Below are positions 3,778-30,796 of a stretch of 38,150 nt of DNA, one piece after another; the stretch's first letter is position 1; each line of letters opens with the position of its first letter. Under the pieces are notes generated by a model. That model was not told the DNA's origin. It made no database searches and worked only from the letters and a program-made list of their open reading frames with translations. Source of the stretch: a virus; IMG/VR virus record IMGVR_UViG_3300006080_000006, positions 1-38,150 of that record; one strand, given 5' to 3'. Both the position numbers and the translations under genes were made by a program.

Positions 3778-4581
3778 ATGTACTACAGAAGGGGCTTTTA
3801 CCCGAGGCCAGGCCAGGCGGATGTGCCAGACGATCTTTGGGCGGAGTTCCAGAGAATCAGGGGGCACCTGTCCAGGGTTGACCAAAACAACATAGAGAGC
3901 TTTTCCCTCGCCAGGAGCGACATAGCTCTTCCGGACACGCCAGACCATGCTGGATTGTCTGACATCGTTGGCGTTGACGGCGAGTTCCTGCATAAGGAGC
4001 TTACGTTTCAGGGCAGCGACCTTGTTGAGATCGGTCGTGTGGCGAACTTTGATCTCGAGGGGCGATGGTTTGACCTTGGGGGCAAGGGCGCGCTTCTGCG
4101 CGGACACTCGAGGGGCGACGCTCCCTGGATTGTCGCAGCGTCAATAGACTTTTCAGCCCGAGACAGAGAGCTCTCTTCACCGTTGGGCACCATTGCAACC
4201 TCAACCGAAGGTCCGAATACAACCGACTCGTCCTTCGGCTCCGGCCACTATACGCCCACGAGCTCGGTCACCGGCACCATCGACAATATGGAAACCTGGA
4301 CAAGCGCGGAGATTATAGATTCGTCTATTACGCGGGTGAACGTTCGGCTTCGCATTAAAACCAAAGAGGGCCTTTCTGCGGCTGAGGCCGTTGGCGGGGC
4401 AGATAACTACTCCGATGGCGGGTCTCTTGCCGTGGTGACCTGTTCGTTTTCCGGGGGTGGTCCGGTTGAGTTTTCGCCAGTAATAAAAGTTGACGAGAAC
4501 AAGTTTGGGGCGCTCAATAAAGATGGCTGGGCCTGCACCATCCACAGGGTGAACATCTTTGCGTTTGGGCTGTATAAGTAA
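3778..4581 (+). CDS. Fibre- or spike-like structural protein, member 1 of 3
   Basis: A 267-residue protein starting at the ATG immediately after the preceding stop. Residues 20-50 form a helical segment (FQRIRGHLSRVDQNNIESFS) followed by a short linker and a beta-rich C-terminal body with many Thr, Ser and Gly residues. The same plan, an N-terminal helix and then a beta body, recurs in the next two genes. This suggests trimeric virion appendages with a shared attachment segment. Host-receptor binding is an inference from plan and position only. Confidence 0.6.
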   Translation: MYYRRGFYPRPGQADVPDDLWAEFQRIRGHLSRVDQNNIESFSLARSDIALPDTPDHAGLSDIVGVDGEFLHKELTFQGSDLVEIGRVANFDLEGRWFDLGGKGALLRGHSRGDAPWIVAASIDFSARDRELSSPLGTIATSTEGPNTTDSSFGSGHYTPTSSVTGTIDNMETWTSAEIIDSSITRVNVRLRIKTKEGLSAAEAVGGADNYSDGGSLAVVTCSFSGGGPVEFSPVIKVDENKFGALNKDGWACTIHRVNIFAFGLYK

Positions 4582-24365: not shown

Positions 24366-24394
24366 ATAATACATGTGCAGTTTAATTTGGTCAA
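24366..24394 (-). promoter_or_regulatory. Sigma70-type promoter for the leftward recombination operon
   Basis: Read on the - strand: -35 TTGACC (24389-24394), a 17-base spacer and -10 TATTAT (24366-24371). Transcription would start near 24358, just before the zinc-ribbon gene. It is near consensus and in the correct divergent gap. Confidence 0.78.
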
Positions 24395-24409
24395 CTAGTT
24401 GTAATACAT
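24367..24409. promoter_or_regulatory. Operator-like palindrome and direct repeats in divergent gap
   Basis: A perfect palindrome CAACTAGTTG (24392-24401) overlaps the -35 box of the leftward promoter. TAATACATGTGCA (24367) and TAATACATCTGTA (24402) form a direct repeat 35 bases apart flanking it. The adjacent Cro/CI-type regulator is the obvious candidate binder. No clear rightward promoter could be fixed. Confidence 0.5.
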
Positions 24410-24446
24410 CTGTAAGACCTATATGCTCCTTTCTTTGGAGGTGCGA

Positions 24447-24695
24447 ATGAGTGATATGAATCTCACCGGAATGAGGCTCCTTCGCGAGTGGCAGAGCCGC
24501 GAAGGAATTGATAGAAAACAGGCCGCTGAAAGGCTTTCGGTCGGCATACCAACACTGGACTCCTGGCTGCAGGGCAACCGCCGGCCAGGTCTGGCAGCAG
24601 CCCGAGTTATTGAGGAGGCCACTGGCGGCCTCGTTAAGACAGATGACTGGTTGACTGGCGAGGAGCTCGCCACCGTCCGGTCAGCAGGTATTTAG
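24447..24695 (+). CDS. Cro/CI-type helix-turn-helix regulator
   Basis: An 82-residue protein. ATG 24447 is chosen because GGAGG lies seven bases upstream; the track-length start at 24423 adds nine unlikely residues. Residues 20-45 (DRKQAAERLSVGIPTLDSWL) are a helix-turn-helix with the Cro/CI spacing, followed by two more short helices. It is divergent from the recombination operon and upstream of the replication genes, so it probably controls both. With no integrase or lysogeny gene visible, it is more likely an early/late timing regulator than a prophage repressor. Confidence 0.75.
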   Translation: MSDMNLTGMRLLREWQSREGIDRKQAAERLSVGIPTLDSWLQGNRRPGLAAARVIEEATGGLVKTDDWLTGEELATVRSAGI

Positions 24696-24741: not shown

Positions 24742-25683
24742 ATGGCAAGAATCAGGTCGGTGAAACCTGAGTTGTTTCACCATGAGGGGCTGGCTTCGTG
24801 TACTCCACATGCCCGCCTTCTCTTCATAGCGATGCTGCAGTTGGCGGACAGAAAGGGAAGGTTCCGCTGGCTTCCGATGCAGGTACACGCACACGCCTTC
24901 CCGTATGAGCCGGGGCTGTCTGTCCACGAGCTGGCAGAGGAACTTCGGGGCATTGGGTGCGTCCAGGTCTACCGCGCTGGCGAGAAGCGCTACGTGGACA
25001 TAGCGAACTTCACCAAACATCAGCGGGTTCCCAATTCTGAAAAGCCCTCAATGGCCCCTGAGCCTCTAGAAAAAACTTTGACAGCTTTTGTTGAACACGA
25101 TGTTGAACAATGTTTGACACCATGTTCAACAAAATCACCCTTGGAAGTATGGAGGGATGGAAGGGGGAAAGGGGAAGAGGGAGGTATGGATGTAGGGAAG
25201 AACAATAAGCCTGTCTTAGAGGCAGGAGATCCAATCTCCAGAATCTGGAACATGTACAAGAGGTACCACCCAAGAAGCAGAACAGAGCCGGCGGAAAGCT
25301 GGCGCGTCCTCATCGAGAAGGCACTCGAGGAACACTCGGCAGAAGAACTCTGCCTGACTGTTCGCTGGGCTAAGGAGGCGCAAGCGTACTCATTCCAAAG
25401 AAGCAAGGGGCACGACAAGCTGAACAACATCCTGGCCTCGACCAAACTACCTGGGCGGGTAGAGGCTGCTCTTGAGTGGGCTGGCATGTCTTCCTCCTTG
25501 GAAGGCTGGCTCGAACACAACGCAAAGGCTGCGCTTCGCTACAGGGACGAAGCCAAGCAGTACGATGCTGAGATGTCTCCTGGCTCGCTGATTCACTACA
25601 TGAGCGAGTATGGGCTGCCTCAGCCGTCACCAGAAGTAGAAGCAAAAGTAATCAATTGGTTGGTATCAAGGGAGTCGATGTGA
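24742..25683 (+). CDS. Lambda-O-like replication initiator
   Basis: A 313-residue protein from ATG 24742 (GGGGG site upstream). Residues 1-95 match the winged-helix start of phage initiators (MARIRSVKPELFHHE, PHARLLFIAMLQLADRKGR). Residues 115-155 are a low-complexity linker whose DNA holds four iterons. The C-terminal half is helical (SWRVLIEKALEEHS, VRWAKEAQAYSF) and would contact the helicase or its loader. The following DnaB-type gene starts inside its stop. The plan, DNA-binding end, iteron-bearing linker and helicase-contact end, parallels lambda O. Exact family is inferred. Confidence 0.75.
   Translation: MARIRSVKPELFHHEGLASCTPHARLLFIAMLQLADRKGRFRWLPMQVHAHAFPYEPGLSVHELAEELRGIGCVQVYRAGEKRYVDIANFTKHQRVPNSEKPSMAPEPLEKTLTAFVEHDVEQCLTPCSTKSPLEVWRDGRGKGEEGGMDVGKNNKPVLEAGDPISRIWNMYKRYHPRSRTEPAESWRVLIEKALEEHSAEELCLTVRWAKEAQAYSFQRSKGHDKLNNILASTKLPGRVEAALEWAGMSSSLEGWLEHNAKAALRYRDEAKQYDAEMSPGSLIHYMSEYGLPQPSPEVEAKVINWLVSRESM
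25089..25131 (+). other. Four iterons, likely origin of replication
   Basis: TGTTGAACA at 25089 and 25101, TGTTTGACA at 25111 and the inverted form TGTTCAACA at 25123. The 9-mers are spaced 12, 10 and 12 bases, about one helical turn, inside the initiator gene. A purine tract follows at once. This matches the intragenic iteron design of lambda-type origins. Confidence 0.7.
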
Positions 25684-26987
25684 CTATCACGAGTTCGGAG
25701 CATTCAGAGAGAGCAGTCCTGGGCGCGGTGTTCATCGCCGGCAGCGACGTGGTCCACGAGGCAGTTGAGATGGGCATCACAGCAGAACACTTCTCCATTC
25801 CAAGCCACCGCAAGGTCTGGGAGTTGGTGTCCTCTGAGGTGGACTCTGGCAGACCTCCTGAGCCTGGGTTCATCGCGGAGAGATACCCAAAGGACGTTAG
25901 GTCCTGCGGCGGGCTGTCCTTCCTGACCAGCCTTGGCGGCTCATGCGGCTCCCTGACCCTGCTCCCTCAGTACGTGGAGAACATCCTCGAGGCGAACAGG
26001 ACGGCGCGGCTGGTGTCTGCAGCGAGGGAGATCCTCCAAGCAGCAGCGTCGTCTGAACACCGAGCCGATGAACTCCAAGCAATCATGGAGCAGGCGCTCA
26101 ACGACTCGTCAAAAGACCTTGGCATCCGAGAGAAGCCAGAGTCGGTAGAGGACATCATCCGCGAGTGGTCGACCAAGCGGGCCCTGGTCCTCTCAGGAGA
26201 GGCGAAGGACACAGACCTCAAGTGGGACCTCTTTGCTCTCGACCGCTTTGTCCTCGCTGGCCCTGGACACCTAGTCGTTATCGGCGGCAGGCCCAAGATG
26301 GGTAAGACACAGCTCGCCGTCTCCCTCATGGCAAACATCGCAAGGAGAAGCGGGCCCGCCCTGTTCTGCTCCGCTGAGATGGGCAAGGAGGCTCTCGCCA
26401 GGCGCATCCTAAGCTCTACCATGGACATCAGGACAAGAGACGCCAGCAAGTTCGCTGTGGGCTTTGAGGAGACTGTCAAGAACTGGCAAGGCGTGCCCCT
26501 CATGTTCGACTACAAGGCTAGGACGGTTCGCAAGGTCTGCGCCAGCATCCGGCAGGCGAAGAGGAAGTTCGACATCAACGCAGCTGCCATTGACTACCTG
26601 CAGTTGCTCGAGATGGACGGCGCCCGTTCGGAGGAGGAAGAGATTGGCAGAGCCAGCAAGACCTTCAAGGGCCTCGCTGAGGAACTTGAGATACCCATCC
26701 TCCTTCTCGTGCAGGTCAACAGGAAGTGCGAAGAGCGACCAGACAAGCGGCCCCTCATGAGCGACATCCGTGGCTCTGGTCGCGTCGAGCAGGACGCAGA
26801 CGCTGTCGTCTTTGTGTACCGAGAGGTCTACTACAACGAACGCTTCCCGAGACCGTCTCAGGTTGAGCTGATTGTCAGAGCCAATAGGCACGGGCCAACC
26901 GGAACCGGAATGTCGTTCTGGACACCCGGCTCTGGCTGGTTCCAAGACCCTACCCATCAGTGGGGAGAAGGGTCACCTCCTCGGTAA
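25680..26987 (+). CDS. DnaB-type replicative helicase
   Basis: A 435-residue protein starting at GTG 25680 (AAGGGAG five bases upstream), inside the stop of the initiator gene. The N-terminal domain (about 1-150) is helical and the RecA-like domain carries Walker A GGRPKMGKT near residue 203, Walker B AAIDYLQLL near 303 and RVEQDADAVVFVYRE near 366, the DnaB arginine-finger region. It would unwind DNA at the fork, loaded by the initiator. It is slightly shorter than bacterial DnaB, as in many phages. Its last 38 bases overlap a convergent gene. Confidence 0.92.
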   Translation: MTITSSEHSERAVLGAVFIAGSDVVHEAVEMGITAEHFSIPSHRKVWELVSSEVDSGRPPEPGFIAERYPKDVRSCGGLSFLTSLGGSCGSLTLLPQYVENILEANRTARLVSAAREILQAAASSEHRADELQAIMEQALNDSSKDLGIREKPESVEDIIREWSTKRALVLSGEAKDTDLKWDLFALDRFVLAGPGHLVVIGGRPKMGKTQLAVSLMANIARRSGPALFCSAEMGKEALARRILSSTMDIRTRDASKFAVGFEETVKNWQGVPLMFDYKARTVRKVCASIRQAKRKFDINAAAIDYLQLLEMDGARSEEEEIGRASKTFKGLAEELEIPILLLVQVNRKCEERPDKRPLMSDIRGSGRVEQDADAVVFVYREVYYNERFPRPSQVELIVRANRHGPTGTGMSFWTPGSGWFQDPTHQWGEGSPPR

Positions 26988-28327: not shown

Positions 28328-28668
28328 CACCTCGACACCCCCGCCCAGGACCACTCCCTGCGATGCGGCCCCCTGACGCACAATGTCAGGCACCCCCGTC
28401 GACCCACCCGCAGGCTGTGGACAGAAGACGCCTTTCGGAACGACACCGACCGGGCTGTCCGGTATGAAGCCGCTCCCTTTCTGGCCTCCGAGTACCCGCC
28501 AGAGAGAACCACCGTCAGGAAGTCCCACGGGTGGTCGTGCCCCTGAATCTCCGCCTTTGGGGAGAACCGATGCAGGTATACGCCGAGCGGGCGGGACTCA
28601 AGGAACACCAGGCGCTCCATGCTGGGGCAGTCTGACCGCTCAGTGGGGAATATGGGTCGCCACCTCAT
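28327..28668 (-). CDS. Cupin-fold protein in the deazaguanine cluster
   Basis: A 113-residue protein from ATG 28668, which overlaps the QueC stop (ATGA); its own stop overlaps the DpdA-like start. It has a cupin metal site pattern: GHDHPWDF (His44 and His46, with Asp49 nearby), a GGYSE segment and a later VHSL (His84), then CVRGPHRREW. Small cupins bind metal and can be oxygenases, isomerases or binding proteins. Tight coupling between QueC and DpdA suggests work on preQ0 or on the modified base. The reaction is unknown. Confidence 0.7.
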   Translation of the reverse strand: MRWRPIFPTERSDCPSMERLVFLESRPLGVYLHRFSPKAEIQGHDHPWDFLTVVLSGGYSEARKGAASYRTARSVSFRKASSVHSLRVGRRGCLTLCVRGPHRREWSWAGVSR

Positions 28669-29291
28669 CGCGCCATCCCCGCCGCTCGAGCCAGGCACGC
28701 GCCGCACTCTCGGCAGGGTGTTTCGCCGCCGGCATAGCAACTCCACGACATGGTTACCAAGTTGGTCGCCCCCAGCTCAGCTCCCAACTCAACGACCTCC
28801 TTCTTGGTCATGCTGATCAACGGGGTGTGGATTTTTATTCGGAGCTCGCCTTCCATCGACCTGAAGAATCCAGGACGACAGTCCTCAAAAACCTCATGAT
28901 CGTCGGCGCATGCCCCAAACACCAAGGCGTCGGGAAGCTTTGGTTCGTGTTCAAGTGCGGCGGCAACCAAAAGGGCTCGGTTTCGACCACCAACCACAAC
29001 GCAGGAACCAGACAACCCCCCCTCGTTTCCGAGAAGGGAGCTGTCGCTCGGGTTCCAGTCGCCCACGCCGCCCGTGATGTCGTAAACAGTCAGACTGACC
29101 CTTGCCGTGGAGGCGATCCTCTTTGCGGCGTCGATCTCCTGGCTGGCGTGCAGTTGTCCGTAGTCAAAACAGACAGCGTCAACCACGTTCTCGTATCGAC
29201 CGTGGTTGCGAATCGCCCACGCAAGGCAGACTGCGGAGTCCATTCCCCCAGACAAAAGGACCCGTATTCTCTTGGGGTAGATCTTCTTCAT
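28665..29291 (-). CDS. queC: QueC, 7-cyano-7-deazaguanine (preQ0) synthase
   Basis: A 208-residue enzyme. It has the PP-loop SGGMDS (14-19), FDYGQLHASQEI (42-53), GGRNRALL (101-108) and a C-terminal zinc site SCYAGG...CRECGAC with Cys185, 193, 196 and 199. QueC turns 7-carboxy-7-deazaguanine into preQ0 with ATP and ammonia. It overlaps both neighbours by 4 bases, showing an operon with the methyltransferase and the cupin. No QueD, QueE or GTP cyclohydrolase is in the window, so earlier steps come from the host or from genes elsewhere. Slightly shorter than bacterial QueC. Confidence 0.9.
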   Translation of the reverse strand: MKKIYPKRIRVLLSGGMDSAVCLAWAIRNHGRYENVVDAVCFDYGQLHASQEIDAAKRIASTARVSLTVYDITGGVGDWNPSDSSLLGNEGGLSGSCVVVGGRNRALLVAAALEHEPKLPDALVFGACADDHEVFEDCRPGFFRSMEGELRIKIHTPLISMTKKEVVELGAELGATNLVTMSWSCYAGGETPCRECGACLARAAGMAR

Positions 29292-30796
29292 TGATTGGCC
29301 TTTCCTGCTTTCGCAATTTGTTCTGCAATCCGCTGCGCCACAATTGGCGTGACTGCGTTTCCTGCTTGTCGGTACCTGCTCTGCTTGGACCCCTGGAATG
29401 GGTGCCCATCAGGAAAATCCATCAGGCGGGCACACTCCTCGACTGTTAGGCGGCGGCGCCCCGTGGCTAGCCAGAGCGTGTCTGACGCCCTCGCCGGCCC
29501 ACCCTGAGCCGTCCACCCAGTAGACTCCTTCCCGTTGGTGCCCTTGTACTCCGTAGCGCTGACCAGGGCGCTGGGCCTGTCCAGGAGTTCGGGGTGCTCG
29601 CCCTTCCGCCACTTAGCCCTCAGCGCCAGTGACGTTCCCTGACAGGCACGCACCGTTGGGCTGGGCTCGTCTATCGAGCGAGCCCCCTGGTTGCCCCCGG
29701 TCTTCCCCCCGTCGTTGAGGCCGGTGACAACCTCAATCCATGGCCCTGCATTCCCTATCTGGGAAGCGGCGATGGTGGTGCAGGGCTCGTTAGTGATGTC
29801 GCGGTAACTGCGCTTGTCGGCATCGGCTGAGCTGCGCGGGTTGGTTCCGCCGCCGATCACCCGAAGAAGCATCCCGTTGCCGACAACCCGAAGCATCTGG
29901 TTGCCGTTGCCGACAACCCGAAGCATCTGGTTGCCCTTGCCGTTGACCGTGGGTGCTGGCTCGTTGAGCGTGTGCGGCCTTTCCTGGTTTGGGTTGTTGT
30001 CGCTGTTGCGGCCACCGTCGAGCTGGACCTCGTCCCACCCATACAGTCCGCCGAGAGCATTGCCCCCAGCCACGGGTTGGCACGACGGGGTGTCCGCACT
30101 CTTCGGCACGCCAGCGACCCCATTCCCGCTCCGCCCTGTTGCGGTACCCCAAGCAGCCAGCCCAAGGGCCTGGCGCACCGTATTCCATGGCTTCAGCCCT
30201 GGGGCGAAGAGGTCTTCCTGCGTCTTGTTCGGGTTGCCGTGTGTCGGCTCGGGCCACTTGATGGGGCGTGGCCCGCCCACCAGGAAGACACGGCGCCTTC
30301 TCTGCGGCACCCCGAAGTCTGCCGAGTCAAGCACCCTCCAGCCCACCCAATCAAAGTGCTTCTCCAGGTTCTTCAGGATCACTTGGTGGAAGTAGGCGTT
30401 CGGGCAGAGAGGCGTCCCTATGCAGGTCTTCCCGCCCTTACACGCCCCCTTGTGGTTGGTGAGACCGACCACGTTCTCCCCCACAAACCAAGTGGGTCCG
30501 GTGAAGTCGATAGCGGCCTCGGTTGCAGGCCACATGTTCCTCTCGTCTTGGGCACCCTTCCTCTTCCCCGCCGTGGACCAGGCCTGACAGGGGAACGAGG
30601 ACCACAGGAGGTCTGGGGCCATGCCCACGTATAGGGAAAGGTCCCTAACGTCTCCTCGCACGGCTGGGAGCCCCGCAGCCTCAAGTGTGGCGCAGGCGTC
30701 CTCGTCCCACTCCACGCAGGCCAGGTGCTCAAAGCCAGCAGCCTCGAGGCCGAGAGCTGCGCCCCCTGCCCCAGCAAATAGTTCAAGTGTTTTCAT
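29288..30796 (-). CDS. C5-cytosine DNA methyltransferase with repeat-rich recognition domain
   Basis: A 502-residue enzyme with the classic motifs: I LELFAGAGGAALGL (4-17), IV FPCQAW with catalytic Cys70, VI ENV (107-109), VIII QRRRR (165-169) and X GNAVTPIVAQ (479-488). It methylates cytosine at position 5 using S-adenosylmethionine. A Cys-containing insert lies near 119-131. Residues 230-440 form an unusually long recognition region with several copies of a (N/D)EPxPTV-like phrase and a tandem 10-residue repeat. It starts the leftward segment leading to QueC and the DpdA-like enzyme. GGAAGGAG lies upstream. Confidence 0.93.
   Translation of the reverse strand: MKTLELFAGAGGAALGLEAAGFEHLACVEWDEDACATLEAAGLPAVRGDVRDLSLYVGMAPDLLWSSFPCQAWSTAGKRKGAQDERNMWPATEAAIDFTGPTWFVGENVVGLTNHKGACKGGKTCIGTPLCPNAYFHQVILKNLEKHFDWVGWRVLDSADFGVPQRRRRVFLVGGPRPIKWPEPTHGNPNKTQEDLFAPGLKPWNTVRQALGLAAWGTATGRSGNGVAGVPKSADTPSCQPVAGGNALGGLYGWDEVQLDGGRNSDNNPNQERPHTLNEPAPTVNGKGNQMLRVVGNGNQMLRVVGNGMLLRVIGGGTNPRSSADADKRSYRDITNEPCTTIAASQIGNAGPWIEVVTGLNDGGKTGGNQGARSIDEPSPTVRACQGTSLALRAKWRKGEHPELLDRPSALVSATEYKGTNGKESTGWTAQGGPARASDTLWLATGRRRLTVEECARLMDFPDGHPFQGSKQSRYRQAGNAVTPIVAQRIAEQIAKAGKANQ
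29875..29934 (-). repeat. Perfect 30-bp tandem repeat in methyltransferase gene
   Basis: 29875-29904 and 29905-29934 are identical and in frame, encoding two copies of NQMLRVVGNG; a diverged copy precedes at 29851-29880. Copy-number change would keep the frame. Confidence 0.9.

Follow-up and report, generated by a model that had tools for sequence, protein, structure and literature searches.

The Rep protein of plasmid pSK41 has a three-part layout, in which the N-terminal domain binds four Rep boxes in the middle of its own gene, the linker is encoded by the origin and is dispensable, and the C-terminal domain serves the replication machinery (PMC5703833). In initiators of the RepA_N type, the sites are semi-palindromic with repeats of 8-9 bp, and the N-domains form dimers (PMC7145576). 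The lambdoid origin is also found mid-gene, within O, where four iterons are bound by O dimers (PMC7466680). Furthermore, the Rep proteins of plasmids are able to bind a single strand of repeats adjoining the iterons (PMC4081077).

Here we analyse a viral record of 38,150 bases, which we call the window. A preliminary description of this DNA had proposed an intragenic iteron origin in a lambda-O-like initiator gene. Below, we compare the locus with the systems described above, with its close relatives and with a wider family of homologues.

The initiator gene and its neighbours

The initiator gene lies between a gene for a small regulator and a gene for a replicative helicase, in the following order:

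24423-24695, + strand: gene for a small helix-turn-helix regulator, upstream of the initiator (weak HTH_31 and PHROG repressor matches)
24742-25683, + strand: initiator gene, 313 aa, with ATG at 24742 (from the open reading frame list)
24742-25023, + strand: codons of the winged-helix N-domain, up to a conserved His-Gln (AlphaFold2 model and PDB neighbours)
25231-25668, + strand: codons of the helical C-terminal region (low-confidence model with helices from residue 164; conserved in relatives)
25656-26987, + strand: gene for a DnaB-like replicative helicase, directly downstream (PF03796, E 3e-57; PF00772, E 9e-9)

The initiator protein matches PHROG 16167/12556/1408/2149, annotated as 'replication initiation protein', with E values down to 1e-32. 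N-terminal profile matches to the PHROG replication-initiation group (16167, 1408, 2149, 12556 and 17247), whose function is assigned by annotation, were obtained for 31 of 31 homologues including the window protein. On the other hand, searches of the window protein against Pfam (E up to 1) and NCBIfam profiles gave no match, including to Phage_rep_O and RepA_N (PF06970). The same was true of a Pfam search with the N-domains of the 31 homologues, again including Phage_rep_O and RepA_N, and a PDB sequence search with the initiator found no relative. The AlphaFold2 model of residues 1-100 has a mean pLDDT of 87 and the order helix-strand-helix-helix-strand-strand, and the model of the full-length initiator was of poor quality. 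Residues 90-161 are predicted to be disordered; this linker spans the site array and the G-rich tract described below, the sites being located at codons 116-130.

The small regulator was weighed as a binder of these sites and rejected. A perfect palindrome, CAACTAGTTG at 24392-24401, is located between the regulator gene and the leftward genes, where it overlaps a promoter-like match on the - strand and is likely an operator. Elsewhere in the window, a tandem 30-bp repeat (29866-29942, 97% matches) lies inside a - strand ORF that we take, from its reading, to be a putative cytosine-5 DNA methyltransferase. Another ORF (28665-29291, - strand), judged by its translation, may encode a QueC-type 7-deazaguanine synthesis enzyme, which would suggest that the phage DNA is modified.

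Four palindromic sites in the linker codons

The sites were read from the sequence as follows:

25089-25097, + strand: site 1, TGTTGAACA
25101-25109, + strand: site 2, TGTTGAACA
25111-25119, + strand: site 3, TGTTTGACA, which fits TGTYNRACA
25123-25131, + strand: site 4, TGTTCAACA
25086-25134: the whole array as one inverted repeat (49 nt; 24-nt arms, 83% complementary, 1-nt centre)

That four 9-mers with a spacing of 10-12 occupy linker codons, as the preliminary description had claimed, can be read directly at 25089-25131, where the site starts are 12, 10 and 12 nt apart and the four 9-mers fall within 43 bases. All four sites match the palindromic class TGTYNRACA (9-bp near-palindromes). 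As the 9-mers are palindromic save for the centre base, the remark that one of them is inverted holds for that base and not otherwise. The site said to carry one mismatch is site 3, which in fact differs from TGTTSAACA at two positions and was missed by a one-mismatch scan.

The earlier reading of the sites as an origin had been made to depend on the 9-mer being uncommon elsewhere in the genome. The 9-mer is indeed not scattered through the 38,150-base record, which may itself be a fragment: exact TGTTSAACA occurs at just three places, all in the array, and a single copy of TGTYNRACA is found outside it, at 3956. When the initiator gene was shuffled 20,000 times among synonymous codons, no palindromic half-site ever came to stand three times within 60 nt, and 300 order-1 Markov versions of the window were likewise free of such clustering. 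Because the clustering is absent from the synonymous shuffles, protein coding does not explain the array. Sites 1 and 2 encode Val-Glu, site 3 Cys-Leu-Thr and site 4 Cys-Ser-Thr in differing reading frames, so that similar 9-mers encode different residues. As is asked of an iteron-type origin, the repeats are more clustered than expected by chance and are limited to a single locus.

Composition around the sites

Two stretches of unusual composition cover or adjoin the array:

25065-25134: AT-rich stretch, the second most AT-rich 70 nt of the record, covering the sites and the DNA just upstream; a candidate melting region
25140-25213, + strand: G-rich purine tract immediately after the sites

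The purine tract reported to follow the sites is present: it holds the most purine-rich 70-nt windows of the + strand in the whole record, as well as the strongest G4Hunter position of the record (25154), and GGGATGGAAGGGGGAAAGGGGAAGAGGG at 25154-25181 fits a G-quadruplex pattern. Nevertheless, the G-rich score does not exceed that of synonymous shuffles with the amino acids fixed, and part of the signal could therefore reflect protein-level selection. As for an AT-rich flank of the lambda O type, the AT-rich DNA here extends over the sites and upstream of them, and G-rich DNA lies downstream. GC skew, which had been suggested as a check, tracks the coding strand and gene orientation; it marks no start site in the window and says nothing on where replication begins.

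Comparison with RepA_N initiators and lambda O

The predicted N-domain may be closest to the RepA_N plasmid initiators of pSK41 and pTZ2162 and to PLE RepA. Its best structural neighbours include 4pql (Z 8.8), 4pt7 (Z 7.9), 5kbj (Z 7.7) and 4pta (Z 7.5), middling scores that are nearly reached by unrelated winged helices. In addition, the window sites are located mid-gene and the linker is encoded by the sites, as is the case for the Rep boxes. RepA_N initiators also have a DnaD-like C-domain for contact with primase or helicase; the C-terminal region of the window protein is helical in a model of low confidence. The window protein differs from RepA_N initiators in that PF06970 gave no match to it up to E 1, and its sites differ in being 9-bp palindromes 10-12 bp apart without a central poly-A. 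Moreover, a G-rich tract follows the sites, and the adjacent gene codes for a phage DnaB. The repeats bound by plasmid Rep proteins are AT-rich, whereas the tandem tract of the window family is G-rich and found on either strand.

The likeness to lambda O is one of sequence architecture only, in that the window iterons also reside inside the initiator gene. Lambda iterons are ~18 bp and thus longer than the 9-bp sites of the window. In lambda the AT-rich region comes after the iterons, whereas in the window AT-rich DNA lies over and before the sites and G-rich DNA after them. A Phage_rep_O match is absent from the window protein, and the next gene is not for a P-type loader but for DnaB. Lambda O was not among the structural matches listed for the N-domain, which is no evidence of a difference. 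Hence, 'lambda-O-like' applies to the layout only, given that no Pfam Phage_rep_O match was found, while the reading as an intragenic iteron origin is supported, at the level of sequence, by the PHROG matches, the DnaB gene next door, the enrichment among homologues and the confinement of the 9-mer. The new feature, compared with the known systems, is that the sites are linked to a G-rich tandem tract, which lies downstream of them and can be on either strand.

Turnover of sites in close relatives

Close relatives of the initiator are encoded on 21 viral contigs. In relatives of ~91% identity, two to four sites still fit TGTYNRACA although bases have changed, and those of ~62% identity keep none to two, always inside the same 50 bases. 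Two relatives of 62% identity, with records of 38 kb and 41 kb, each have a single copy of the pair TGTYNRACA-N3-TGTYNRACA, which lies in the initiator gene. The 62% group is without a 30-nt in-frame stretch corresponding to sites 3 and 4, the second arm of the inverted repeat, and gain or loss of sites may proceed in blocks. Across the wider clade, the array of four sites is not kept; as far as these sequences indicate, the array turns over and its place does not. The 30-nt in-frame difference between clades (L004-L024 versus the window; alignment A2, columns 125-134) coincides with half of the array.

A shared layout among 39 homologues

For the wider family, 29 phage homologues and further viral contigs were dereplicated at 80% identity to 39 genes, which were aligned on the His-Gln ending the winged helix and compared with synonymous shuffles. 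Across the 39 genes, inverted 7-mer pairs were 3-fold more frequent than in the shuffles between +60 and +120 nt (z 7-8). A weaker excess was seen at +150 (z 4), and another at -120 (z 6), within the winged-helix codons. Short-period direct repeats exceeded the shuffles at +60 to +240 with a 6-fold peak at +120 to +180 (z 17-24). All of these z-values overstate certainty, as the homologues are related, sampled by homology and non-independent. For the same reason, the statistics show a shared layout and not independent origins of it. When genes were tested singly, significant inverted pairs were found in the zone in 13 of the 39 (2 expected), and two thirds of the homologues had no significant palindromic excess. 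The strongest G- or C-run tract fell at +90 to +210 in 21 of the 39 (~6 expected), 12 of these tracts having G and 9 having C on the coding strand.

Palindromes can be recognised by eye, such as CTCGCGAG in Phrann, ACGCGT in Vibrio 1.176 and GGAAGTTCC in Jablanski; that they differ between phages is expected if the sites are initiator-specific. The tract units vary as well: GGAACAGG and GGGAAGGGAA occur, as does the opposite-strand form CTGATTCC. The wide family alignment held too few conserved stretches for a search. We regard the positional excess across the family as the best evidence that points to an initiator-binding origin over a coding accident.

With more doubt than confidence, we tentatively propose that the members of a widespread initiator family, for which Pfam has no model, have in common an intragenic origin of two parts, in which phage-specific palindromes are followed at a roughly fixed distance by tandem G-rich repeats. 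These can be on either strand and take the form (GGAACAGG)n, (GGGAAA)n or, as the complement, (CTGATTCC)n. The tract might then serve to separate the strands or to load a protein, either replacing a classical AT-rich unwinding element or acting alongside one. No earlier description of the layout or the tandem tracts was found in the openly licensed literature, and one may exist elsewhere. The layout offers a simple rule for candidate origins, namely to search 60-250 nt after the His-Gln ending the winged helix, which would reach many uncharacterised phages and prophages (of Pseudomonas, Vibrio, Gordonia and Mycobacterium, E. coli HK639, and environmental ones). It also connects phage initiators with the RepA_N mechanism and poses the testable question of a G-rich element beside initiator sites.

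Proposed function of the array and alternative explanations

We consider it likely that the array is the initiator-binding part of a phage replication origin inside the initiator gene, and that it works by the mechanism proposed here as a whole. The N-terminal winged helix would bind the four TGTYNRACA palindromes, probably with one dimer per 9-bp site and cooperatively, because neighbouring sites are 10-12 bp, or about one turn, apart; the symmetry of the sites makes a dimer at each of them plausible, as had been suggested before. The bound initiator would bend or open the AT-rich DNA over and beside the array. The unstructured, origin-encoded linker would let the C-terminal region, to which we ascribe a putative role in helicase or primase recruitment, recruit the phage DnaB encoded just downstream. 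The G-rich tract would be a second origin element, which probably keeps one melted strand apart during helicase loading, either by folding or by binding the initiator or a host protein. By analogy, we hypothesise that the tandem tract is a strand-specific element like the repeats bound by plasmid Rep proteins.

Alternatively, the sites could be operators: bound there, the initiator or the small helix-turn-helix regulator encoded upstream would tune or block the transcription of replication genes. Repressors typically have palindromic sites such as TGTYNRACA, the regulator gene lies 47 bp upstream of the initiator, and plasmid initiators commonly autoregulate at their own sites. We nonetheless judge this explanation improbable, since the array is ~350 nt into the gene, no promoter-like match was found in or near it, the divergent promoter region has another palindrome that is a likelier operator (CAACTAGTTG), and the homologues hold differing site sequences at the same intragenic place.

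A DNA or mRNA hairpin, or a cruciform, formed by the 49-nt inverted repeat in place of four protein sites seems even less probable. The 24-nt arms and the single-strand fold of the array (z -3.1) are what such a structure would call for. However, the relatives of 62% identity are without the second arm, yet in some of them sites 1 and 2 persist as a direct pair, and base changes in L004 and L005 break arm pairs while sites 1 and 4 stay TGTYNRACA. Just as improbable as the hairpin is a coding or repeat-slippage accident that left repeats without a DNA role in a fast-evolving linker: the protein sequence of the linker is poorly conserved, and many TGTTGAACA repeats in other genes are mere Pro-Val-Gln-Gln coding repeats, but the synonymous shuffles (0 of 20,000), the different reading frames and residues of the sites, and the positional excess across the family all argue against it.

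TGTTSAACA in other genomes

At least three TGTTSAACA sites in the linker, often followed by a purine tract, were found in L035, L041, L103, L104, L111-L113 and L123. These arrays are in initiators of the Lin1244_N (PF14297), DUF1376 (PF07120) and O-like PHROG families, the N-domains of which belong to other families than that of the window protein. Among viral stretches with three TGTTSAACA sites, 19 of 48 were in initiator genes of several families, as called from PHROG or Pfam matches or from close similarity to scanned members, compared with 0 of 13 stretches in a control with two scrambled palindromes. In prophage loci (36 Lin1244_N and 9 DUF1376), an array was present in 1 of 45, and that locus had been pre-selected. 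A universal TGTTSAACA code was rejected on this count; the 9-mer is recurrent, not universal. Many of the remaining hits are coding repeats of low complexity.

Arrays were also encountered outside initiator genes. Three TGTTSAACA with 2-bp gaps and then a purine-rich stretch lie in a gene for a head maturation protease (phrog_976), a non-initiator, in L093 (5550-5580) as well as in L101, L117 and L120. The arrays in the viral contigs L100, L106 and L114 lie where there is no long ORF (the longest being 53-72 aa) and are possibly intergenic origins. Finally, TGTTCAACACCGAGTGTTGAACA-type elements are repeated outside long ORFs in the CPR genomes L135, L141, L150 and L182 (Candidatus Niyogi-, Zambryski- and Nomurabacteria).
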